From contig NZ_AP025592.1 in assembly GCF_023169965.1 (NCBI RefSeq), positions 3,472,001 through 3,536,000 on the forward strand: DNA of 64,000 nucleotides, in the 5' to 3' direction. The translations under genes were made by a program, and so were the position numbers. The notes under the pieces are model-generated. The model was not told where the DNA came from. It was given only the letters and a program-made list of their open reading frames with translations, and did not search any database. Shown here one piece after another: positions 33,182 to 45,182 of this stretch. Within the stretch, counting starts at the first letter, position 1. Each line of letters begins with the position of its first letter. This DNA is from Anaeromyxobacter paludicola. Lineage in GTDB: Bacteria; Myxococcota; Myxococcia; Myxococcales; Anaeromyxobacteraceae.

Positions 33182-34311
33182 GGCGGGTGGAGGTGGCGCC
33201 GCGCCCAGGCTGGCAGGCGCGGCTGGAGGGGGACGGCTTTCCCATCCACACGCCCGACGGCCCGTACTGGGACGAGTCGGCCTGCTACGAGCTCGAGCCC
33301 GCCGAGGCCGACGCGCTCGAGGCGGCCACCAACGAGCTGCACGCCCGCTGCCTCGAGGCGGTGGAGCACGTCATCGGCGAGCGGCTCTACCCGAAGCTCG
33401 GGATCCCCGAGCTGGCGGTGCCGCTCATCGAGCGCTCCTGGAACGCGCTCGACGGCCAGGGGGCGCCCTCCATCTACGGCCGCATGGACCTCGCGGTCGG
33501 CGAGGGGCCGCCCAAGCTCCTCGAGTACAACGCCGACACCCCCACCGCCCTCATCGAGGCGGCGGTGCTGCAGTGGCGCTGGCTCGAGGAGACCTCGCCC
33601 GGCGCCGACCAGCTCGACTCGATCCACGAGCGGCTGGTGGCCGGCTGGAAGGACCTCGCCCCCTACCTGCCCGGGCCCCTCCACTTCTCGGCGCTCGACC
33701 TCCCGGAGGACGTCCTCACCGCGAGCTACCTCCAGGATACCGCCGCCCAGGCTGGCCTCGAGACGCGCTTCATCGAGGTCCGCGACCTCGGCTGGGACGC
33801 CCGCCGCCGCACCTTCGTGGACCTCGAGGGCGCGCCGATCGCGTCGCTCTTCAAGCTCTACCCGTGGGAGTGGCTCTTCGCCGAGCCCTTCGGCGCCCAC
33901 CTCCCGGAGGCGGCGACCACCTTCGTCGAGCCGCCCTGGAAGATGATCCTGAGCGGCAAGGGGATCCTGGCGGTGCTCTGGGAGCTCTTCCCCGATCACC
34001 CGAACCTGCTCCCGGCCTTCTTCGAGCCGCACGGCATGGACCGCTACGCGCGCAAGGCGCTCTACGGCCGCGAGGGGGCCGAGGTGACGCTCTTCGAGGG
34101 CGGGCGCGCGGTGGCCGGCGGCGAGCGGGCCGCCTTCTCGCGCGAGGGGTTCGTCTACCAGGCGCGAGCCCGGCTCGAGCCGCACGACGGCAAGTGGCCG
34201 GTCGTGGGGAGCTGGCTCGTGCAGGGCGAGGCGGCCGGGATCGGGATCCGCGAGGGCGACGGCCCCATCACCGACGACCGGAGCCGGTTCGTGCCGCACC
34301 GGATCCGGTAG
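33178..34311 (+). CDS. Glutathionylspermidine synthase-like ATP-grasp protein (YgiC type)
   Basis: A 377-residue protein of the Gsp_synth / YgiC-YjfC group. VLLxYNADTPT appears as KLLEYNADTPTALIEAAVLQW, followed by WEWLFAEPFGAHL, PPWKMILSGKGILAVLWELFPDHPNLLPA and the C-terminal SWLVQGEAAGIGIREGDGPIT, all family blocks. It ligates an amine or peptide using ATP; for YgiC-like proteins, which lack the amidase half, the true substrate is unknown and need not be spermidine. GTG 33178 overlaps the TGA of the YgiB-like gene (GTGA), so coupling is tight. Confidence 0.9.
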   Translation: MRRVEVAPRPGWQARLEGDGFPIHTPDGPYWDESACYELEPAEADALEAATNELHARCLEAVEHVIGERLYPKLGIPELAVPLIERSWNALDGQGAPSIYGRMDLAVGEGPPKLLEYNADTPTALIEAAVLQWRWLEETSPGADQLDSIHERLVAGWKDLAPYLPGPLHFSALDLPEDVLTASYLQDTAAQAGLETRFIEVRDLGWDARRRTFVDLEGAPIASLFKLYPWEWLFAEPFGAHLPEAATTFVEPPWKMILSGKGILAVLWELFPDHPNLLPAFFEPHGMDRYARKALYGREGAEVTLFEGGRAVAGGERAAFSREGFVYQARARLEPHDGKWPVVGSWLVQGEAAGIGIREGDGPITDDRSRFVPHRIR

Positions 34312-34324
34312 CCGGCGACGGCGC

Positions 34325-35995
34325 TCAGTAGGTGAGCACCGCCGTGTCCTGGCTCAGGCCGGCCGCCGGGTCGGCCTGGACGACCACGTACTTCTTCGAG
34401 CAGCCCGCTCCGTAGAAGACGAAGCGGCCGTGCGTCGGGAACGAGTTGGCGCCCACGTTCCAGTACGGCAGCGTGATGCTCCGGGTGGGGCCGAGGTAGG
34501 TGGCGTTCAGGAGCTCGACTGTGCCGTCGAGGGCCCAAGATCCGTAGGAGGGGCTGGCCGGGATGGCCGCGAGCTCGGAGGCGCAGTCGTCGAGGTGGGT
34601 CACCGCGCTGAGCCCTGGCAGCGCGCCCCCGTAGGCAAGATCCAGGGACTGGGTCTCATCGGCGCGCAGCGTCGTGGAGGAGGAGGTGTAGATCCGGTTG
34701 CCATCCCCGCTCATCCAGATCCTGGCGGGGGCCCAGAAGTTCCCCCAGCTCGAGTCCCAGACGTGCGTCACCGTGCTGGTGGAGACGTTCCAGCGCTGGA
34801 CCCCGCCGCTGATCCCGACGTACATCCGGTCCCCGTCGCGGTGGAGGCGCGCGCTGGCGGGCGGGTCGGTCAGGTACGCGCCGATCTTCGTCTCGGCGCC
34901 GGTGGCCAGCTCGATCGCGCGGATCCCGGCCGAGGTGTCGCTGCGCGGGAAGAGGTAGGCCCATCCGTTGCCGGCCAGCACGCAGGTGCCGACGTCGGTG
35001 GTGACCGGGATCGTGTTCAGGAGCGCGGGTCCCGAGAGATCCACATACGAGAGCCAGGCGTCGTGCCCGATGACGGCATGAAGGCCGTCCGGGCTCAGGC
35101 TCAGGCACTGCGGCGCGAGCGGCAGCGCGACGCTCTTCTCCGCCCCGGTCGCCGGGTCCTGGACGTAGAGCGCCCGAGAGGCCGCGTCGGCCATCACCAG
35201 GCGATCGAGGGCGCGGCTGTACTCGGCGAGCAGCACCCCGTGCGAGAGGGCGGTCATCCTCTGCCCGGCCGGCCCGACGATGACCGTCACCGAGGCGGTG
35301 GCGCTCTGGTGGTCGTCAGCGGTGACCGTCACCTGGAGCGTGTAGCTCCCCGTGACGGTGGCGCTGAAGGAGGGCTTGGCGGTCGCGGCGCCGATGATCG
35401 CGCCATCGCCGCCCATGGGCTGCTGGGTCAGGTTCCAGGAGAAGGAGAGCGAACGGCCGTAGGGGTCGGAGCTGGCGCTGGCGTCGAGGGTCACCGGCGC
35501 GCCCGGCGGCGTGGTCACGCTCGCGTTTGCGACCTGAGCTGTCGGAGGGCCGTCCTGCCGCCCCGTGAACGTGAGGGTCGCCACCTGCGTCGTGATGCCG
35601 CAGCCCCCGATGGAACCGTCGAACGTGACGGAGAAGCTCCCATCGGTCAGGCTGCCGTAGCCGCTGTGGATCTCCCAGGTGTACGTGCAGTTCCTGCCGG
35701 GAATCGTGCAGGTATGGGCGCCGACGGTGATGGCGGTGTCGGAGGTCACGCGCGCGGCCGGCCCCTTGCCGTCCCGGCAGAACCCCGGGAAGGTGAGCGC
35801 GTTCCGCCCCGTGGTCGAGACGTCCAGCGCTGCGGACCCGCTGCTGGCGCCCGAATGCATGGTGCCAATCCAGCGGCCGACGAACGGGCCGGATGCGTCG
35901 TGGTCCAGGACGTCGTCCGGAACGTTCGAGCTGGAGCCGCCACAGCCCGCGAGGCAGCAGCCCAGGCCGAGCCCGACGAGAAGCGCAGCGCGCAT
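34325..35995 (-). CDS. Cell-surface lipoprotein with PKD-like domain and beta-propeller-like repeats
   Basis: A 556-residue lipoprotein with lipobox CLAGC (Cys 18). An N-terminal beta domain (about 35-150) with four Cys is followed by an immunoglobulin/PKD-like domain (about 155-245: PPTAQVANASVTTPPGAPVT then SYTLQVTVTADDHQSATASV), then about 300 residues of YVTN- or Kelch-like repeats (LDRLVMADAASRALYVQDPA and similar) that probably fold as a propeller. No catalytic motif is seen; binding or adhesion is a guess. GGGGGGAG precedes ATG 35995. Codon use is less G+C-biased than the neighbours, a possible sign of later acquisition. Confidence 0.75.
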   Translation of the reverse strand: MRAALLVGLGLGCCLAGCGGSSSNVPDDVLDHDASGPFVGRWIGTMHSGASSGSAALDVSTTGRNALTFPGFCRDGKGPAARVTSDTAITVGAHTCTIPGRNCTYTWEIHSGYGSLTDGSFSVTFDGSIGGCGITTQVATLTFTGRQDGPPTAQVANASVTTPPGAPVTLDASASSDPYGRSLSFSWNLTQQPMGGDGAIIGAATAKPSFSATVTGSYTLQVTVTADDHQSATASVTVIVGPAGQRMTALSHGVLLAEYSRALDRLVMADAASRALYVQDPATGAEKSVALPLAPQCLSLSPDGLHAVIGHDAWLSYVDLSGPALLNTIPVTTDVGTCVLAGNGWAYLFPRSDTSAGIRAIELATGAETKIGAYLTDPPASARLHRDGDRMYVGISGGVQRWNVSTSTVTHVWDSSWGNFWAPARIWMSGDGNRIYTSSSTTLRADETQSLDLAYGGALPGLSAVTHLDDCASELAAIPASPSYGSWALDGTVELLNATYLGPTRSITLPYWNVGANSFPTHGRFVFYGAGCSKKYVVVQADPAAGLSQDTAVLTY

Positions 35996-36111
35996 GAGAC
36001 TCCCCCCTTCGCCGCCTTGTACCGGCCGGTGAGGGAGAGAGGAAGGACAAATTGACCGTAGGTACGGGAGCGCATCGCGGGGGCGGATTCCATGGAAGCC
36101 GGCGCCCGGCT

Positions 36112-36146
36112 TCGTGTTAGTAGCACGATTCATGAAGTCGTATGCC
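36112..36146 (+). promoter_or_regulatory. Candidate NikR operator at the TonB-dependent receptor start
   Basis: TAGCACGA-N9-TCGTATGCC (36121-36146) is repeated with the same spacing upstream of nikM (42753-42778). Directly upstream, TCGTGTTA-G-TAGCACGA (36112-36128) is a 17-bp palindrome with a single mismatched pair. The element covers the ATG at 36132, so repressor binding would block a transcript that starts at or near the start codon; there is no ribosome site, consistent with a leaderless message. NikR as the binder is inferred from the adjacent nikR gene; the spacing differs from the E. coli operator. Confidence 0.6.
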
Positions 36147-38195
36147 GAACTGTTCTTCCTCGCGGCCGCGGCGCTCGTCTCGGTTCCGGCGCGGGCGCTC
36201 GAAGTCTCGGGTGAGCCGATCGAGCTGCCGGAGGCGGTGGTGGTGCTGCACTACGAGGACAGGATCGGCAGCTCCGACGCCGCCAGCGCCGGGACGGTGA
36301 CCCAGCAGCTGGTGGAGGACCGGCCCATCCTGCGCCCGGGCGAGGTGCTCGAGCTCGTGCCCGGGCTGGTCATCACCCAGCACAGCGGCGCCGGCAAGGC
36401 CAACCAGTACTTCCTGCGCGGCTTCAACCTCGACCACGGCACCGACTTCGCGACCACCCTGGACGGCGTGCCGCTCAACCTGCGCACCCACGCGCACGGC
36501 CAGGGCTACACCGACTTGAACCCGCTCATCCCCGAGCTCGTCGATCACGTCGATTACTTCAAGGGCCCCTACTTCGCCTCGAAGGGCGACTTCGCCTCCG
36601 CGGGGGCGGCCGACCTCCACTACGCCGAGGCGCTCCCGGAGACGCTCTTCCAGGCCACCCTCGGCACGCTCGGCTACCGGCGGGCGGTCGCCGCCGGCTC
36701 GCCGGAGCTCGCGGGCGGCCGGCTCCTCTACGGGTTCGAGTACGCCCACGAGGACGGGCCCTGGGTGCACCCCGACGACTACCGGCGCGTGAGCGGCGTG
36801 CTGCGCTACACCCATCCGCTCGGCGCGGGGAAGGTCTCGGTCGAGGCGACCGCCTACGCCGGCACCTGGGACGCCACCGACCAGATCCCGCTGCGCGCCG
36901 TGGTCTCGGGCGCGCTCGACCGCTACGGCGCGGTCGATCCGACGAGCGGCGGCAGCTCACACCGGTACGGCCTCTCCGCGAGCCTGGAGGAGCCGCTCCT
37001 CGGCGGCGTGCTGCGCGCCAACGCCTACGCGGTGAAGTACGATCTCGACCTCTTCTCCGACTTCACCTACTTCCTCGACGATCCCGTGCACGGGGACCAG
37101 TTCGAGCAGCGCGACGACCGCTGGTATTACGGCACCTCCGGGAGCTGGCGGTGGCTCGGCGCGCTCGCCGGCGCGCGGCTGCAGGCGGAGCTCGGCTGGG
37201 AGGGGCGGCTCGAGCGGATCGCGCCGGTGGGGCTCTATCACACGGCGGCGCGCGTCCGGCTCGAGACCACGCGCGAGGACCGGGTCTGGGAGGCGAGCGG
37301 GGCGCTCTACGGGTCGCTCGACGCCGCCTTCACGCCCTGGCTGCGGGCGATCGTGGGCGCGCGCTACGACGGCTACCTCTTCGACGTCGCGAGCAGCGAT
37401 CCTCGCAACGGCGGGCACGCCAGCGCTGGCCGCGCGTCGCCCAAGGCGTCCCTGGTGCTCGGCCCCTGGGCACAGACCGAGCTCTTCGCCAACTTCGGGT
37501 ACGGCTTCCACTCCAACGATGCCCGCGGCGTCACCACCACCGTCGATCCCGCCACCGGCGAGCGGGTTCAGCCGGTGACCCCGCTCGTGCAGACGCGCGG
37601 CGGCGAATTGGGGATCCGGACGGAGCTCGTGCCGCGCATGCAGACCTCGCTCTCGCTCTGGCGGCTCGACCTCGACTCGGAACTCCTCTTCACCGGCGAC
37701 GCCGGCACCACCGAGCCCTCGCGCCCCTCGCGCCGGCAGGGGCTCGAGTGGAGCGTGCGCTACGAGCCCCTGCGCTGGCTCCTCTTCGACCTCGACCTCG
37801 CCTGGTCGCGCGCCCGCTTCACCGACCCCGATCCGGCCGGCGACCACGTCCCCGGCTCCATCGAGACCGCGGTCTCCGCCGGCGCGACCGTCCACGCGCT
37901 CGGCCCCTGGTCGGCGAGCGCCTTCCTGCGCCACTTCGGCCCGCGCCCGCTCGTCGAGGACGACCGCGTGCGCTCCTCGGCCTCGACCACCGTGAACGCG
38001 CAGCTCGCCTACCGGCTCGGGGAGCACGTCCGGCTCACCCTCGACGTCTTCAACCTGCTCGACAGCCGGGTGGACGACATCGCCTACTTCTACGTCTCGC
38101 GCTCGAAGGGGGAGCCGGCCGCCGGCGTGGCCGACGTCCACTTCCACCCCGCCGAGCCGCGGAGCGCCCGGGCCACGGTGGCGGTGCTCTTCTAG
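36132..38195 (+). CDS. TonB-dependent outer-membrane receptor, probably for nickel
   Basis: A 687-residue receptor with a signal peptide (MKSYAELFFLAAAALVSVPA), a possible TonB box near LPEAVVVLHY, a plug domain (about 45-165, with FLRGFNLDHGTDFATTLDGVPL and NLRTHAHGQGYTDLN) and a 22-strand barrel ending in the C-terminal Phe (ARATVAVLF). It imports a substrate across the outer membrane with TonB energy. Nickel is inferred from nikR 59 bp downstream on the same strand, and from the shared sequence motif with nikM. His-rich plug loops fit a metal ligand. ATG 36132 gives a standard signal peptide; GTG 36114 would spoil it. Confidence 0.9.
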   Translation: MKSYAELFFLAAAALVSVPARALEVSGEPIELPEAVVVLHYEDRIGSSDAASAGTVTQQLVEDRPILRPGEVLELVPGLVITQHSGAGKANQYFLRGFNLDHGTDFATTLDGVPLNLRTHAHGQGYTDLNPLIPELVDHVDYFKGPYFASKGDFASAGAADLHYAEALPETLFQATLGTLGYRRAVAAGSPELAGGRLLYGFEYAHEDGPWVHPDDYRRVSGVLRYTHPLGAGKVSVEATAYAGTWDATDQIPLRAVVSGALDRYGAVDPTSGGSSHRYGLSASLEEPLLGGVLRANAYAVKYDLDLFSDFTYFLDDPVHGDQFEQRDDRWYYGTSGSWRWLGALAGARLQAELGWEGRLERIAPVGLYHTAARVRLETTREDRVWEASGALYGSLDAAFTPWLRAIVGARYDGYLFDVASSDPRNGGHASAGRASPKASLVLGPWAQTELFANFGYGFHSNDARGVTTTVDPATGERVQPVTPLVQTRGGELGIRTELVPRMQTSLSLWRLDLDSELLFTGDAGTTEPSRPSRRQGLEWSVRYEPLRWLLFDLDLAWSRARFTDPDPAGDHVPGSIETAVSAGATVHALGPWSASAFLRHFGPRPLVEDDRVRSSASTTVNAQLAYRLGEHVRLTLDVFNLLDSRVDDIAYFYVSRSKGEPAAGVADVHFHPAEPRSARATVAVLF

Positions 38196-38254
38196 CCGGC
38201 GCGCGGTTGCGCCCGATCGGAGGCGCTGGTAGGCATCTTCGCGGAGGCACCTGC

Positions 38255-38674
38255 ATGCTGGAGCGCATCGGCATCTCGCTGGAGCACGACCTGCTCGCGC
38301 AGTTCGACCGGCTCATCGAGGAGAAGGGCTACGAGAACCGCTCCGAGGCGATCCGCGACCTCATCCGCGAGCAGCTCGTGGCGCGCGGCTGGTCGGAGGC
38401 GCGGGGCGACGAGGAGCGGGTGGCGGTGGTCACGCTGGTCTACGACCACGACTCGTCGAGCCTGGCGCAGAAGCTCACCCACATCCAGCATGAGAACCAC
38501 CTCGCGGTGGTCTCGGCGCTCCACGTCCACATGGACCACCACAACTGCCTCGAGGTGCTGGTGCTCCGCGGCAAGGCCAAGGAGATCCTGCGGATGGGCG
38601 AGAGCCTGGTGAGCACCAAGGGCGTGCGCTACGGGAAGGTGGTCCCGGCGACGACGGGGCAGGAGCTGAAGTAG
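38255..38674 (+). CDS. nikR: Nickel-responsive transcriptional regulator NikR
   Basis: A 139-residue ribbon-helix-helix repressor. Residues 1-45 form the DNA-binding domain (MLERIGISLEHDLLAQFDRL). The ACT-like C-terminal domain holds the nickel site: H in THIQHENHL, two His in ALHVHMDHHNC and the Cys of that block, corresponding to H76, H87, H89 and C95 of the E. coli protein. With nickel it represses nickel uptake. GGAGG lies 8 nt before ATG 38255. It is likely co-transcribed with, and autoregulated through, the receptor gene upstream. Confidence 0.95.
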   Translation: MLERIGISLEHDLLAQFDRLIEEKGYENRSEAIRDLIREQLVARGWSEARGDEERVAVVTLVYDHDSSSLAQKLTHIQHENHLAVVSALHVHMDHHNCLEVLVLRGKAKEILRMGESLVSTKGVRYGKVVPATTGQELK

Positions 38675-38681
38675 CCCGCCG

Positions 38682-39182
38682 CTAGGCCCGCCGCGCGGGC
38701 CGGGGCCGCGGCGCCTCGTGCCCGGCGCGGGCGTCCTCCTGCCGCGCGCGGTGCTCCTCGTGCCGCGCACGGTGCTCCTCGTGCCGCGCACGGTGCTCCA
38801 GGATGCGCGGGAGGCGCTCCTCGATCCAGTCGGTCAGCGCCTCCACGTGCCCGGCCACCTCGCGCCCGAGCGGCGTCAGGCTGTAGTCCACCCGGGGCGG
38901 GATGACCGGGTAGACCTCCCGGAGGACGAAGCCGTCGCGCTCGAGCGCCTGGAGCGTCTGGGCGAGCATCTTCTCGCTCACGCCCGCCACCTTGCGCCGG
39001 AGCTCGCTGAAGCGGTGCGTGGACTCGAGCAGCGCCACCAGCACCAGCACGCCCCAGCGGCTGGTCACGTGGTCGAGCACCCCCCGCGACGGGCAGGCGG
39101 GCGCGTAGAGATCGCCGCGGCGAGGCAATGCGTTCCGGTTCATCGCCCGGGCCAGGTGGCCGCTGCGCCTCGTCTCGATCAT
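38682..39182 (-). CDS. qorR: HxlR-family redox-type transcriptional regulator (QorR-like)
   Basis: A 166-residue winged-helix protein of the HxlR (YtfH/YodB) family. CPSRGVLDHVTSRWGVLVLVALL carries the conserved N-terminal Cys that senses electrophiles or oxidants in this family, followed by the wing RFSELRRKVAGVSEKMLAQTLQALERDGFV and VPPRVDYSLTPLG. It is divergent from a qorB homologue, as in E. coli qorR/qorB, so it probably represses qorB and itself. The C-terminus carries an unusual EHRARHE repeat. ATG 39182 or ATG 39143 could be the start; neither has a strong ribosome site. Confidence 0.88.
   Translation of the reverse strand: MIETRRSGHLARAMNRNALPRRGDLYAPACPSRGVLDHVTSRWGVLVLVALLESTHRFSELRRKVAGVSEKMLAQTLQALERDGFVLREVYPVIPPRVDYSLTPLGREVAGHVEALTDWIEERLPRILEHRARHEEHRARHEEHRARQEDARAGHEAPRPRPARRA
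38751..38800 (-). repeat. 21-bp tandem repeat coding for the EEHRARH tail of the regulator
   Basis: The plus-strand unit GTGCTCCTCGTGCCGCGCACG occurs twice exactly (38751-38771, 38772-38792) with a partial third copy to 38800 and a degenerate copy before it (38731-38750). Each unit encodes seven residues on the minus strand. The exact copies point to recent slippage; length may differ among strains. Confidence 0.9.
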
Positions 39183-39189
39183 GTCAGTA

Positions 39190-39220
39190 ACTTACCAAAA
39201 GGTAGGTACTTTCGCAAAGT
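39190..39220. promoter_or_regulatory. Candidate HxlR-type operators in the qorR/qorB gap
   Basis: Two adjacent inverted repeats: ACTTACC-AAAA-GGTAGGT (39190-39207, one mismatch) and ACTTT-CGC-AAAGT (39208-39220). The TACC...GGTA form resembles known HxlR/YodB sites with TAC and GTA half-sites. They lie just upstream of qorR and 55 bp from qorB, where they could control both genes. This AT-rich patch stands out sharply from the surroundings. Confidence 0.55.
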
Positions 39221-39275
39221 GAGTGTCAGCGTTAGGTTCCGCTCCAGACCAACCCCTTGCAAGGAGAGAGACCCC

Positions 39276-40130
39276 ATGTTCGTCGTCACCGCAGCCACCG
39301 GAAAGCTGGGCCGCCACGCGGTCGAGGCGCTGCTCCAGAAGGTGCCCGCCCGCGAGATCGCGGCGGCCGTGCGCCACCCCGAGAAGGCGGCCGACCTCGC
39401 CGCCCGCGGCGTGCAGGTGCGAGAGGCCGACTACACCCGCCCCGGCACCCTGCAGGCGGCCTTCCAGGCCGGCGACAAGGTGCTCTTCATCTCGTCGAGC
39501 GCCGTCGGCGAGCGGCTGCCGCAGCACCGGGCGGTGGTGGAGGCGGCGCGGAAGGCCGGGGTGGCGCTCCTCGCCTACACGAGCCTGCTCCGGGCCGACC
39601 GCTCCACCCTCGGGCTCGCCCCGGAGCACAAGGGCACCGAGGAGCTCGTCCGCGCCTCCGGCCTGCCGTTCGTCTTCCTGCGCAACGGCTGGTACCTCGA
39701 GAACTACACCGAGAACCTCGGGCCGGCGCTGGCGCACGGGGCCATCGCCGGCTGCGCCGGGCAGGGCCGCATCGCCGCCGCCTCCCGGGCCGACTACGCG
39801 GCCGCCGCGGTCGAGGTGCTCACCGGCGCGGGCCACGAGGGGAAGGCCTACGAGCTCGCCGGCGACGCCCCCTTCACGCTGGCCGAGCTCGCGGCCGAGG
39901 TCTCGCGCCAGCTCGGCCGGACCATCGCCTACGCCGACCTGCCGCCGGAGGAGTACCGCAAGGTGCTCACCGCGGCCGGGCTGCCCGGCCCGTTCGTGGA
40001 GCTGCTCGTCGACTCCGACCTGGGCGCCTCCCGCGGCGAGCTCGACGACCGGACGGGCGAGCTGCGTCGCCTCATCGGCCGCCCCACCACCTCGCTCGCG
40101 GCGGCGGTGAAGGCGGGGCTGGGGCGCTGA
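39276..40130 (+). CDS. qorB: NAD(P)H:quinone oxidoreductase QorB (NmrA-like SDR)
   Basis: A 284-residue atypical short-chain dehydrogenase. TAATGKLGRHAVEALLQKVP is the NADPH loop; AYTSLLRADRSTLGLAPEHKGTE, LRNGWYLENY and SRADYAAAAVEVLTGAGHEGKAYELAGD follow the E. coli QorB (YtfG) sequence block by block. It reduces quinones with NADPH and is linked to quinone or electrophile stress through the divergent HxlR regulator. AAGGAGAG stands just before ATG 39276. Confidence 0.93.
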   Translation: MFVVTAATGKLGRHAVEALLQKVPAREIAAAVRHPEKAADLAARGVQVREADYTRPGTLQAAFQAGDKVLFISSSAVGERLPQHRAVVEAARKAGVALLAYTSLLRADRSTLGLAPEHKGTEELVRASGLPFVFLRNGWYLENYTENLGPALAHGAIAGCAGQGRIAAASRADYAAAAVEVLTGAGHEGKAYELAGDAPFTLAELAAEVSRQLGRTIAYADLPPEEYRKVLTAAGLPGPFVELLVDSDLGASRGELDDRTGELRRLIGRPTTSLAAAVKAGLGR

Positions 40131-40151
40131 CGCGAGGCGCCGCGCCTTCGC

Positions 40152-40946
40152 TCAGCCGCCGCGCAGCGCGCCCCCGTGCGGGTGGCGGTGCTTGAGGATG
40201 TGCGGCGTCTCGAGCCGGTGCGCCGCCATGAGCCGCTCGTCCCCGAGCACCGCGGCGGTCGGGCCGTCGGCCACCACCCGGCCGCCGTCGAGCACCGCCA
40301 CCCGCGGGCAGAGCTCCACCACGAGCTCCAGGTCGTGCGTCACCACGAGCAGCCCCTGCTCGAGCCGCGAGAGCCGCCCCAGGAGCTGGCGGCGGGCGTA
40401 GGGGTCGAGGAAGGCGGTCGGCTCGTCGAGCACGAGGAGCCGGGGCCCGGTGACGAGCGCGCCGGCGAGCGTCACCGCCCGCTTCTCGCCCGAGGAGAGG
40501 TGCCCCGGGAAGCGGCCGGCGAGGCGGCCCGCCCCCATCTCCTCGAGCGCGGCCCGCGCGCGCGCCTCGGCCTCGGCGGGCGGCACCCCGGCGGCGAGCG
40601 GCGCGAAGGCCACGTCCTCGAGCACCGTGGGCATGAAGAGCTGGTCGTCGGGGTCGTTGAAGAGGAAGCCGGTGCGGGCCCGGATCTCGGGGAGCGACGC
40701 CGGCGCGAGCGGCAGCCCGGCCACCCGCGCCGTCCCGGCGGAGGGCTCCACCAGCCCGGCGAGGAGCGAGATGAGGGTGGTCTTGCCGGCGCCGTTCGGC
40801 CCCACCAGGCCGAGCCGCTCCCCCTCGCCGAGCCGGAGGTCCACGCCGCGCAGCGCCTCGGTGCCGTCGGGGTAGCGGAAGGCGACGCCCTCGAGCGCGA
40901 CGAGCTCGGCGGGGCGGGCGCCGGGGGCGGGAGCGGGACCGGTCAC
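40152..40946 (-). CDS. nikO: Nickel/cobalt ECF transporter ATPase NikO/CbiO
   Basis: A 264-residue ATPase with Walker A GPNGAGKTT, FNDPDDQLFMPTVLEDVAFAP (the Q-loop block typical of ECF ATPases), signature LSSGEKRAVTLAGAL, Walker B LLVLDEPTAFLD and LLVVTHDLELV. The tail is His-rich (HILKHRHPHGG), which suits metal transport. It powers uptake through NikM/NikQ. GTG 40946 overlaps the TGA of nikQ (GTGA). Tail to tail with qorB. Confidence 0.92.
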   Translation of the reverse strand: MTGPAPAPGARPAELVALEGVAFRYPDGTEALRGVDLRLGEGERLGLVGPNGAGKTTLISLLAGLVEPSAGTARVAGLPLAPASLPEIRARTGFLFNDPDDQLFMPTVLEDVAFAPLAAGVPPAEAEARARAALEEMGAGRLAGRFPGHLSSGEKRAVTLAGALVTGPRLLVLDEPTAFLDPYARRQLLGRLSRLEQGLLVVTHDLELVVELCPRVAVLDGGRVVADGPTAAVLGDERLMAAHRLETPHILKHRHPHGGALRGG

Positions 40947-41740
40947 GAGAGCCTCGAGAGGAGCGCCTCGCCGGCCCAGCGCGAGAGCGGCAGGAGCCGG
41001 GCGGCGGCGCAGAAGGTGACCCCGAGCGCGAGGAACGCGGCGTCGCGGGCCCGGAACCGCTCGGTCGCGAGCGAGGGGAGCTCGCCTTGGAAGCCGCGCA
41101 CCTGCATGCAGCGGTAGACGCGCTCGCCGCGATCCCAGGTCCGGCGGAGCAGGGTGAAGAGCATGCCGCGGGCGGTGGCGAGCCGGGGCAGCCTTCGCCG
41201 GGGCTCGCGCAGGAGCCGCGCCGCCTGGAGCCGCTCCCCCTCGGCGACCAGGAGGAAGAGGTAGCGGTAGAGGAACTGGAGCTGGGTGGTGAGCGCCGCC
41301 GGGGTCCCGAGGAGCCGGAGCCCGCGCACCAGCCGCGGCATGGAGGTGGTGGCGACGAGGAGGAGGAGCGTGCTCGTGCAGAGGGCGAACCGGAGCAGGA
41401 TCGAGAGCAGCGACAGCACGCCCCCGCGCACCGCCACGCCGGCGACGTGCGCCGCCGGCGCGGTGTCGAGGAAGGGGTTCGCGAGCCCGACCAGCAGCGC
41501 GAACGGGCTCGCCGCCAGCACGAGCCGCAGCACCGGGCGCGGCGCCACCCGGCCGCCGAGCCCGAGCGCCACCGGCACCGCGAAGAAGGGCAGGAGCCCC
41601 GCCACCTCGTAGCGCGGGAAGGAGCTCACCGCGAGCACCAGCGCGGCGGCGACGAGGAGCTTGGCGCGCGCGTCGAGCCGGTGGACGGGGCTGTCGGCGT
41701 ATCCGAGGCGATCGAGCTCGCGCGCGGCGACCCGGCTCAC
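40943..41740 (-). CDS. nikQ: Nickel/cobalt ECF transporter T component NikQ/CbiQ
   Basis: A 265-residue membrane coupling protein with about five to six helices. The two cytoplasmic coupling motifs appear as ATARGMLFTLLRRTWDRGERVYRCMQVRGFQ (with the E-R-V-Y-x-A/C-M-x-x-R-G box) and SSFPRYEVAGLLPF in the first helix region. It links the ATPase to the substrate-specific NikM. GTG 41740 overlaps the TGA of nikM, and its TGA overlaps nikO, so all three are co-translated. Confidence 0.9.
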   Translation of the reverse strand: MSRVAARELDRLGYADSPVHRLDARAKLLVAAALVLAVSSFPRYEVAGLLPFFAVPVALGLGGRVAPRPVLRLVLAASPFALLVGLANPFLDTAPAAHVAGVAVRGGVLSLLSILLRFALCTSTLLLLVATTSMPRLVRGLRLLGTPAALTTQLQFLYRYLFLLVAEGERLQAARLLREPRRRLPRLATARGMLFTLLRRTWDRGERVYRCMQVRGFQGELPSLATERFRARDAAFLALGVTFCAAARLLPLSRWAGEALLSRLS

Positions 41741-42723
41741 CGGGCGTCGCTCCGGCCGGCGCGCCCGCGGCGCAGGAGCGCGGCGGCGCCGCCCACCAGG
41801 CCCAGGGTGGCGAGGAGCCCGAGCCCGCCGGCGAGCGAGGTGCCGAGCCGCGCCGAGCCGGGCGCGCGCGCGGGCAGGGCGTAGTCGGGGAGGAGCGCGG
41901 TGCGGGCCTGCACCGCCCGCAGCGCCGCGTGCGCCGCGCCGTCCTCGCGCACCGCGGCCCCGGAGCGCGCCAGCGCCCACTCGAGCCCGTCGGGCCGCGC
42001 CGAGGCGAACCAGGCGCCCACGCACCCCGTGAACACCGCGAGGGCGAGGACGGTGGGCGCGAGCGGCAGCCGCCCCGCGGCCGGGGCCGGCGCCGGGCCG
42101 GTCGCGCCGAGGCGCGAGGCGAAGCGGATCATGCCGGCGGTGACCAGTCCCTCGACGGCGCCGATGGGCAGGTGGACGCCGAGCATGAGCGCGGCGAAGC
42201 GGGAGAAGGGGAGGTCGGCGCGGCCGGAGAGCTGCGTCTCCACCATCACGCCGAGCGCGCCGAGCTCGGCGGCGAGCAGGGCCGGGGCGAGGCAGGCGAG
42301 GGTGAGCCGCGCCGGGCCGGGGGCGTCCCCCGCGAGCCTGCGCTGCAGCGGGAGCCCGAGGAGGGCCGGCCAGACGCCCATGTTGAAGAGGTTGCAGCCG
42401 AGGGCCAGCAGGCCGCCGTCGGCGAAGAAGAGCGCCTGCACCAGCAGCACCGAGGCCATCACCACCAGCGCCGCGCTCGGCCCGAGCAGGACCGAGAGGA
42501 GGAGCCCGCCGGCGAGGTGGCCGGAGGAGCCGGTCCCCGGGATGGCGAAGTTCACCATCTGGGCGGCGAAGACGAACGCCCCGAGCACGCCCATGAGCGG
42601 CACCCGGCGGGCCTGGTCGGGCTCGCGCGAGAGCCGGCGCGCCGCGCCCGCCACGAGCAGCCCGGCCGCCGCGTCGAACGCGAGGCCCACGGAGGGCGAG
42701 AGCAGGGCGTCGGCCATGTGCAT
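41737..42723 (-). CDS. nikM: Nickel ECF transporter substrate component NikM fused to a NikN-like domain
   Basis: A 328-residue protein starting MHMADALLSPSVG. In NikM/CbiM the free N-terminus and His2 coordinate the metal, so ATG 42723 must be exact. About seven helices form the S component (to residue 215), including GSSGHLAGGLLLSVLLGP with the conserved His and GVHLPIGAVEGLVTAGM. The C-terminal third has ARPDGLEWALARSG and a last helix, matching the separate NikN/CbiN subunit, so the two are fused. Nickel rather than cobalt is inferred from the NikR motif 30 bp upstream. Confidence 0.92.
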   Translation of the reverse strand: MHMADALLSPSVGLAFDAAAGLLVAGAARRLSREPDQARRVPLMGVLGAFVFAAQMVNFAIPGTGSSGHLAGGLLLSVLLGPSAALVVMASVLLVQALFFADGGLLALGCNLFNMGVWPALLGLPLQRRLAGDAPGPARLTLACLAPALLAAELGALGVMVETQLSGRADLPFSRFAALMLGVHLPIGAVEGLVTAGMIRFASRLGATGPAPAPAAGRLPLAPTVLALAVFTGCVGAWFASARPDGLEWALARSGAAVREDGAAHAALRAVQARTALLPDYALPARAPGSARLGTSLAGGLGLLATLGLVGGAAALLRRGRAGRSDAR

Positions 42724-42752
42724 GGTCGGTCGGGCGGCCGCGGCGGGAGCCG

Positions 42753-42778
42753 TAGCACGAGAACGACACTCGTATGCC
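42753..42778 (-). promoter_or_regulatory. Candidate NikR operator upstream of nikM
   Basis: On the plus strand TAGCACGA-N9-TCGTATGCC, identical outside the spacer to 36121-36146 at the TonB-dependent receptor. The inner ACGA...TCGT forms a dyad. It lies 30 bp upstream of ATG 42723, in the position of a promoter for the nikMQO operon. The identical 17 fixed bases at the same spacing in two nickel-gene promoters make chance unlikely. Confidence 0.65.
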
Positions 42779-42855
42779 TGGCGGGCCGGCTGGTCAAGGA
42801 CGTTGGGGCCTCGGGGGCGGCCGCGCCGCGCCGCCTTCCGCTACACTCGCCCCCC

Positions 42856-43860
42856 ATGCGCGCGCTCCTCATCGGCGGGACCCGCTTCGTCGGCTACCTC
42901 CTGGCGCGCCGGCTCCTCGCCGGCGGTCACGAGGTGACGGTGCTCAACCGCGGCACCCTCGCCGACCCCTTCGGCCCCGAGGTGGAGAAGCTCCGCGCCG
43001 ACCGGACCGGGCCCGCCCTCGGCGAGGCGCTCCGGGGCCGGAGCTTCGACGCCGTCTTCGACTTCGCGGGCTACACCGCCGAGGACGGGCGGCGCGCGGC
43101 GGAGCTGCTCGACGGCCGGGTGGGCCACTACCTCGCCGTCTCCACCGGGCAGGTCTACCTGGTGCGCGAGGGGGCGCCGCGGCCGGCGCGGGAGGCCGAC
43201 TACGACGGGCCGGTGATGGCCCGCCCCGCCGAGGCGGAGGAGCTCGCCGAGTGGGAGTACGGCGTCGGCAAGCGCGGCTACGAGGACGCGCTCCGGGCCG
43301 CCCACGCGGCGCGCGGCTTCCCGGTCACGGTGGTGCGCATCCCCATGGTGAACGGCGAGCGCGACTACTACCGGCGCATCGAGCGCTACCTCTGGCGGCT
43401 CGGGCAGGGCGGCCCGGTGCTCCTCCCCGACGGCGGCGGGCACGCCACGCGCCACGTCTACGGCGGCGAGGTGGCCCGGTTCCTGGCGCTCGCCGCCGGG
43501 CGGCCGGAGACCTTCGGGCAGGCCTACAACCTGGCCCAGGAGGAGACCCCGACCCTGCGCGAGCTCGTGGCCGCGCTCCGCGACCTCCTCGGCTCGGCGT
43601 CGCCGCTCGCAGCCGCGCCGGCCGAGCTCCTCCGCGCGCGCGGGCTCGACCCGCTCCTCCTCTCGCCCTTCAGCGGCGCCTGGATGAGCTTCCTCGATCC
43701 CTCGCGCGCCCGCGACGCGCTCGGCTTCCGGCACGAGCCGCTCGCCTCGTACCTGGGGCGGATCGTGGCGAGCTGGCTCGCACACCCGCCCGAGGACGCG
43801 CCGCCGGGCGCCGAGCGGCGCGGGGACGAGCTCGCGCTGGCGGCGGAGCTGCTGGGCTAG
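42856..43860 (+). CDS. NAD-dependent epimerase/dehydratase (atypical SDR)
   Basis: A 334-residue protein with the nucleotide-binding start MRALLIGGTRFVGYLLARRLL (G-G-T-R-F-x-G, the CSP41-like atypical SDR pattern) and the loop DAVFDFAGYTAED. The region YLAVSTGQVYLVREG holds the Ser of the active site, and the expected Y-x-x-x-K appears as YGVGKRGYEDAL. The product and substrate are unknown; nucleotide sugar chemistry is possible. It is divergent from nikM and ends tail to tail with argJ, sharing a CTAG. Confidence 0.8.
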   Translation: MRALLIGGTRFVGYLLARRLLAGGHEVTVLNRGTLADPFGPEVEKLRADRTGPALGEALRGRSFDAVFDFAGYTAEDGRRAAELLDGRVGHYLAVSTGQVYLVREGAPRPAREADYDGPVMARPAEAEELAEWEYGVGKRGYEDALRAAHAARGFPVTVVRIPMVNGERDYYRRIERYLWRLGQGGPVLLPDGGGHATRHVYGGEVARFLALAAGRPETFGQAYNLAQEETPTLRELVAALRDLLGSASPLAAAPAELLRARGLDPLLLSPFSGAWMSFLDPSRARDALGFRHEPLASYLGRIVASWLAHPPEDAPPGAERRGDELALAAELLG

Positions 43861-45182
43861 CTCCGGTAGTCCGCGTTCTCGGTCACGTACTCGTGGGTGC
43901 GGTCGGCGCCCAGCACCTCGCAGGCGCCGTCGCCCATCCCGAGCGCCACCGCGATCTCGACGCAGCGCTCGTGCGGCGGGTGCCGGTGCGGCGGCTGGAA
44001 GGTGAGCCCGTCCGGCGGCGGCGCGCTCGCGTACATCTCCGCGGCCTTGAGGTGGGCCACGAGCCGCTGCTCCTTCTCCGGGTCGAGCCGCATCGCGCCG
44101 CCCTCGAAGACCACCTCGCCGCCCACCGCGATGCGGACGCGGGCCGGGTCGAGCGGCATCCCCTCGCGCCCGGCCAGCTTGCCGATGGCGCAGAGGATCC
44201 GGCCGAGGTTCGGGTCGTTGCCGGCCACGGCGCACTGGAGCAGGGGCGAGTTCACGAGCGACTTGCCGAGCGCGCGGGCCGCCCGGGCGTCGGGCGCGCC
44301 CTCGAGCCGCGCCCGGATGACGTGGTGGACCCCCTCGCCGTTGCGGACCACGTCCTCGGCGAGGTCGCGGCAGACCTGGCGGAGCGCGGCCCGGAAGGCG
44401 GCGGCGTCCACCTTCGGCCCGGCGGCGGAGGAGACCAGCGCCACGGTGTCGGAGGTGCTGGTGTCGGAGTCGATGGAGATGCAGTTGAAGCTCGCCTCGT
44501 TCGCCTCGGCGAGCGCGGCGCGCAGCTCCTCGCGCGGCAGGTCGGCGTCGGTGAGGAGGAAGACCAGCATGGTGGCGAGGTCGGGCTCGATCATCCCGGC
44601 CCCCTTGGCCACCCCGACCAGGCTCGCGCCGCCGGGCAGCTCGGCGCGGCGGACCTTGGGGTAGAGGTCGGTGGTCATGATCGCCTCGGCGAGCGGCAGC
44701 GCGCTCTCGCCCTGCAGCGCGCCGGCCGCGGCCGGCAGCGCCGCGAGCATGGCCTCGACCGGCAGCCGCCAGCCGATGACGCCGGTGGAGGAGGGGAGCA
44801 CCTCGGTGGGCGCCATCCCCAGGAGCCGGGCCGCCTCGGCGCAGATCCGCTCCGCCGCCGCCTCGCCGCCGGGGGCGCAGACGTTCGAGACCTTGTTGTT
44901 GACGACGAGCGCCCCGAGCCGGGGCTCGGCGAGCCGCCGGCGGCCCACCAGGACCGGCGCGCCCGGGAAGGCGTTCCGCGTGAACGCCGCGGCGAAGGCC
45001 GCGCTCGGGCGCTCCAGGGCGACGAGCGAGAGGTTCATGCGGGCCCGCTTCGACGGGACCTCCACCGGCGCGAACTCGAGGGAGGCGGTGCCGGTGCGGA
45101 AGCCCTTCGGCAGCCGGGACTGGGTCTCGAGCCAGGCGCGGTGCGCGGCGGCGCTCTGGAAGGTGAGGGCGGTGGAGTACAT
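43857..45182 (-). CDS. argJ: Bifunctional glutamate N-acetyltransferase / ornithine acetyltransferase ArgJ-like
   Basis: A 441-residue enzyme of arginine synthesis that moves acetyl groups between N-acetylornithine and glutamate. The autocleavage and nucleophile site is KGAGMIEPDLATML (T204), and the oxyanion block is SSTGVIG (131-137). EASFNCISIDSDTSTSDTV and AVAGNDPNLGRILCAIG also match. The usual T-N-S-G-N-A-N-A-x-T-G segment is replaced by VNNKVSNVCAPGG, so this is a divergent subgroup and its exact acetyl donor is less certain. The gene is single; other arg genes are not in the window. Confidence 0.88.
   Translation of the reverse strand: MYSTALTFQSAAAHRAWLETQSRLPKGFRTGTASLEFAPVEVPSKRARMNLSLVALERPSAAFAAAFTRNAFPGAPVLVGRRRLAEPRLGALVVNNKVSNVCAPGGEAAAERICAEAARLLGMAPTEVLPSSTGVIGWRLPVEAMLAALPAAAGALQGESALPLAEAIMTTDLYPKVRRAELPGGASLVGVAKGAGMIEPDLATMLVFLLTDADLPREELRAALAEANEASFNCISIDSDTSTSDTVALVSSAAGPKVDAAAFRAALRQVCRDLAEDVVRNGEGVHHVIRARLEGAPDARAARALGKSLVNSPLLQCAVAGNDPNLGRILCAIGKLAGREGMPLDPARVRIAVGGEVVFEGGAMRLDPEKEQRLVAHLKAAEMYASAPPPDGLTFQPPHRHPPHERCVEIAVALGMGDGACEVLGADRTHEYVTENADYRS

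Follow-up and report, generated by a model that had tools for sequence, protein, structure and literature searches.

Two matching inverted repeats at nickel-uptake genes of Anaeromyxobacter paludicola are probably operators of the nickel regulator NikR and resemble sites predicted earlier in related bacteria

NikR sites of the form GTGTTAC-N13-GTAACAC were predicted in delta-proteobacteria in 2004, together with the reversed arrangement, GTAACAC-N13-GTGTTAC, in Desulfotalea (PMC545781). In Helicobacter pylori, NikR represses outer-membrane metal receptors, and 20 bp between half-site centres, i.e. two helical turns, is the distance reported for the NikR tetramer (PMC5385501). Loci that bring together nikR, a TonB receptor and nikMNQO are found in Caldithrix abyssi, where they share a NikR-like motif (PMC5317091). 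In the present work, we have analyzed a stretch of 64,000 nucleotides from Anaeromyxobacter paludicola (contig NZ_AP025592.1, positions 3,472,001 to 3,536,000; referred to as the window, in whose numbering all coordinates of this locus are given), which contains a comparable set of genes and two copies of a common sequence motif.

The motif, GTAGCACGA-N9-TCGTATGCC, is present at positions 36120–36146 and 42752–42778. The original prediction had reported 17 identical bases with the same spacing at two nickel-gene promoters; both sites are indeed present, and a leading G that is also common to them raises the number of fixed bases to 18, while the spacers of the two sites show no sequence relation. 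Viewed as an inverted repeat, the sites read GTAGCAC-N13-GTATGCC and are 27 bp long. Predicted NikR operator 1 (GTAGCACGATTCATGAAGTCGTATGCC; 36120–36146, plus strand) lies over the probable start codon of a TonB-dependent receptor gene, and predicted NikR operator 2 (42752–42778, minus strand), which reads GGCATACGAGTGTCGTTCTCGTGCTAC toward nikM, stops some 29 bp short of the nikM ATG (42723, minus strand); the orientation of the motif relative to the gene is opposite at these two places. When at most 3 mismatches are allowed, the 17-base pattern is found twice in the window versus 0.03 times expected from shuffled sequences, and a scan of the complete genome, a single contig of 4,590,331 bases, yields both window sites and one further stretch with 3 mismatches, so that at up to 2 mismatches the two sites are the sole matches of the motif in 4.59 Mb. 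A genome scan with the symmetric pattern of the family described below, allowing up to 2 mismatches, likewise returned these two sites only, and a wider NikR regulon sought in the genome with the same pattern at 3 mismatches gave noise (79 matches versus 75 for the control).

The receptor gene (36132–38195, plus strand) encodes a TonB-dependent outer-membrane protein of 687 amino acids with Pfam Plug and TonB_dep_Rec_b-barrel domains, which has orthologues in the related genomes G022 (68%) and G033 (56%) and is predicted to be a receptor for nickel or a nickel chelate. Right behind it, as had been noted originally, at a distance of about 60 bp, lies nikR (38255–38674, plus strand), the gene for a nickel-responsive ribbon-helix-helix repressor of 139 amino acids. 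Its product is matched by the NCBIfam NikR equivalog (1.8e-62, above cut-off) and by NikR in the PDB (4.7e-39), and both of its domains, viz. RHH_1 (2.6e-8) and NikR_C (2.5e-28), are above the Pfam cut-off. Residues H79, H90, H92 and C98 of this protein align with the NikR of P. horikoshii, for which the structure has been solved, and we take them to be the His-His-His-Cys nickel ligands (H76, H87, H89 and C95 in E. coli). The ECF importer is encoded on the minus strand from 42723 to 40152 and comprises nikM fused to a PDGLE (nikN/cbiN-like) domain (41737–42723; CbiM 1.6e-51, PDGLE 1.3e-20), nikQ, a CbiQ-type T component (40943–41740; CbiQ 1.1e-30), and nikO, the ECF ATPase (40152–40946; ABC_tran 3.2e-29, with the ECF ATPase models best but below their cut-offs); all CbiM/NikM, CbiQ and CbiO-type subunits of a NikMNQO ECF transporter are thus present. 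The NikM-PDGLE protein is, as judged from its domains, the substrate-specific component of an ECF nickel/cobalt importer. The NCBIfam models listed for NikM are cobalt CbiM models, which fall below cut-off, and from the NikR context and the operator we infer that nickel is the metal of this transporter. The host genome also codes for a [NiFe]-hydrogenase and therefore needs nickel.

The region between nikR and nikO (38682–40130) is occupied by an HxlR-type regulator gene and a divergent NmrA-like oxidoreductase gene, and the 3' end of the HxlR gene contains a short tandem repeat encoding HRARHEE units (38710–38800). As nikR and nikO are immediate neighbours in the congener G024 (L063), this pair of genes has been either inserted in the host or lost in G024. 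The congener has nikR, nikMQO and the nikM operator, and its assembly, which is about 80% complete, yielded no TonB receptor orthologue.

NikR is encoded in 22 of the 24 genomes of the Anaeromyxobacter-like family, and the two genomes without it are represented by assemblies that are 66% and 79% complete. Sites were gathered from the regions around nikR and nikM in these relatives, and in 21 of the 24 genomes the same 27-bp geometry precedes nikM, nikK, nikL or TonB-receptor genes. The family consensus is GTAnYACGa-N9-tCGTRnTAC, and the half-site consensus from 50 halves is G-T-A-(G/A/T)-(C/T)-A-C-G-a, in which the invariance of the ACG core is somewhat inflated by the partly score-based gathering of the motif and in which the sites, coming from related genomes, are not fully independent. 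Inverted GTANYACG octamers in these loci form 24 pairs at a distance of 11 bp, and no other spacing between 0 and 30 accounts for more than 4. When GTANCACG-N11-CGTGNTAC was searched with zero mismatches in 59 whole genomes, 14 sites were found, all of them in the host family beside nik genes; the controls gave no match, and the 36 non-family genomes had no site.

Within the family, G024 carries the exact motif before nikM in the same place as the host, and variants of the site precede nikM in G022, G027 and G033. The receptor gene of G022 that is orthologous to that of the host (68% identical) has a symmetric site of this operator class, 9 bp upstream of its ATG, and a similar site is carried by an unrelated TonB receptor gene beside nikR in G027. 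In G027 (L075, G027:C285, 8168–8235), two sites lie close together before a different TonB receptor gene, which adjoins a second copy of nikR and an operon of nikMQO. Of the 8 scored positions of the consensus half, only 5 are matched by the second half-site of the window sites, GGCATACGA; this degenerate half recurs in a few relatives and is the only peculiar part of the window sites. No site was seen within 800 bp before nikM in the family genome G026, which has nikM and a nikR fragment, and no convincing site near nikR in non-family genomes with NikR at 46–74% identity (G126, G127, G137, G138 and G139). The exact 18-base motif occurs in 9 stretches among 84,980 species: two belong to family members at nik operons and one precedes a TonB receptor gene of a Desulfuromonadales genome, where the receptor has a Plug domain and the genome's own NikR is 57% identical, with no site found beside its nikR. 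The remaining stretches, some of them inside reading frames, show no visible link to nickel genes and are consistent with chance.

The reading of these sites as NikR operators is well supported because conservation, geometry, gene context and co-occurrence with nikR point in the same direction, and the NikR encoded at 38255–38674 is very likely the protein that binds both of them. Metal uptake genes can also be under the control of Fur or Zur. The sites could accordingly belong to another metal sensor, or to HrcA, with nikR a mere neighbour, but this is improbable, as the sites are found only at nik and TonB genes and clear ones were not found at nikM/cbiM-like genes without a NikR hit. In genomes of the order that have such genes but no NikR hit, the loci score at most 11 of 14 and contain no convincing site, versus scores of 11 to 14, mostly 12 or more, for the clear sites in NikR genomes. 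The CIRCE element of HrcA (TTAGCACTC-N9-GAGTGCTAA) does have the same N9 spacing, and TAGCAC is common to it and the left half of the window sites (consensus quoted in PMC545781), but HrcA was rejected because a genome scan for CIRCE with up to 3 mismatches gave no match; in addition, the half-site variants GTAACACG, GTATCACG and GTATTACG shift toward the NikR consensus and not toward CIRCE.

Read in the gene direction, 18 of 25 sites are preceded by TTGAC (TTGCC in one), which stands 19 to 23 bases from the start of the site; this nearly constant distance would place a −10 hexamer in the first half-site. At nikM, transcription is predicted to begin within the operator, some 40 nt from the ATG, and the predicted −35 element TTGACC (42792–42797, minus strand) is 17 bp from the predicted −10 element TACGAG (42769–42774, minus strand), the latter within the first operator half-site, and the spacing is the same in G024 and one base longer in G033. 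The hexamer is TAnCAC or TAnTAC in most relatives, and TACGAG/TACGAC, a few bases further in, at nikM of the window, G024 and G033. The coincidence of the −10 element with this half would explain why the nikM half-site is GGCATACGA and not GTAGCACGA. Consensus promoter scans gave nothing at either site, and a strict scan did not flag TTGACC, so that the −35/−10 assignment is drawn solely from the conserved spacing. A TTGAC at a nearly constant distance, together with TACGAG or TAnCAC within the site, is also what would be seen if the shared bases were promoter elements only, kept for RNA polymerase and not for a repressor. Such an explanation is very improbable, as the inverted repeat of fixed 27-bp length extends beyond the −10 element and the pattern occurs at nickel genes only; moreover, the receptor gene and some nik operons have it with no TTGAC in front. 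For a NikR operator lying on the −10 element of nikM, repression would most likely proceed by blocking RNA polymerase.

The site at the receptor gene has the asymmetric form of the nikM site with the opposite orientation; it has no TTGAC and extends across the probable ATG (36132). Its original placement at a receptor promoter therefore stands only in part: the site exists, but it is not clearly upstream of the gene, and an in-frame GTG at 36114 would even place it inside. No recognisable −35 element is present and no promoter is evident here. Directly before the possible GTG start, a perfect 8-bp inverted repeat, GAAGCCGG-CGC-CCGGCTTC (36095–36113), is found, with no T run after it. A divergent gene for a PKD-domain lipoprotein (34325–36001, minus strand) has its intergenic region in common with operator 1 of the receptor, and joint regulation of the two genes is possible, though no promoter was seen; as a promoter of the lipoprotein gene, site 1 offers a −10-like half in that direction, and no −35 element was seen. 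An operator over the receptor start codon would block a near-leaderless promoter or act as a roadblock. We regard as tentative, and rather doubtful, the overall picture in which the operators of the family incorporate the −10 element, their less conserved half being drawn toward promoter sequence, and in which NikR on the start codon of the window's receptor gene stops a near-leaderless or already started transcript.

When nickel is plentiful, a Ni-NikR tetramer would bind across the 27-bp inverted repeat, the 7-base half-sites of which have their centres 20 bp, or two helical turns, from each other. The bound NikR would shut down the nikMQO importer and the unit formed by the TonB receptor gene and nikR, and nickel would so limit its own uptake through both membranes; NikR would probably also limit its own expression (autoregulation). 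A metal riboswitch or leader hairpin in place of a DNA operator was rejected as having next to no likelihood, for although inverted repeats are able to form RNA hairpins, an Rfam search of 34000–44000 gave no family above cut-off, the receptor leader folds no better than shuffled sequences (z −0.59), and the nikM site spans the −10 element and the predicted start, so that it would be only partly transcribed. The predicted NikR regulon for the Anaeromyxobacter-like family thus consists of the inner-membrane ECF importer, the outer-membrane receptor and the regulator itself, and it makes nickel the likely substrate of a TonB receptor for which the sequence gives no other clue to what is taken up.

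In comparison with the known systems, the sites examined here are 27-bp inverted repeats with half-sites N13 apart, in keeping with the 27–28 bp and N13/14 of NikR operators of the delta-proteobacterial type, and they are placed at nickel-uptake genes in genomes that encode nikR. Operators of this type have been predicted already in related bacteria, and the finding, though real, is a fairly ordinary one. The family and the delta-proteobacterial operators share a 27-bp inverted repeat with GTnnnAC halves 13 bp apart and a location upstream of nikMQO/nikK operons in nikR genomes; the family sites are of the reversed kind, and those of G030 and G031 equal GTAACAC-N13-GTGTTAC exactly (PMC545781). 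The family differs in adding an inner G, and usually an A, to each half (ACGa), and the window sites differ in their degenerate second half, GTATGCC, which agrees with GTGTTAC at 3 of 7 positions, versus 6 of 7 for the left half with GTAACAC (PMC545781). Caldithrix abyssi has the same gene constellation as the host, with one motif before both loci, but belongs to a different phylum, and the likeness concerns the gene constellation (PMC5317091). The Helicobacter pylori operators have half-site centres 20 nt apart, as do the host sites, but differ in their AT-rich TRTTA/TAWTA halves (PMC5385501). The original prediction of a lineage-specific NikR operator unlike that of E. coli is well supported as regards NikR and mostly not supported as regards the departure from E. 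coli, a contrast based on the short consensus. The nikABCDE operator, as read upstream of nikA in MG1655, is GTATGACGA-N10-TCGTCATAC; it shares GTAnnACGA with the family, with GTA/TAC on the outside and ACGA/TCGT on the inside, as well as a length of 27–28 bp, and it is different in being one base longer, in having G and not C/T at the fifth position, and in regulating NikABCDE and not an ECF transporter. The delta-proteobacterial and E. coli NikR boxes, with GTAnnACGA half-sites common to both, are thus closer to each other than their consensus strings suggest.
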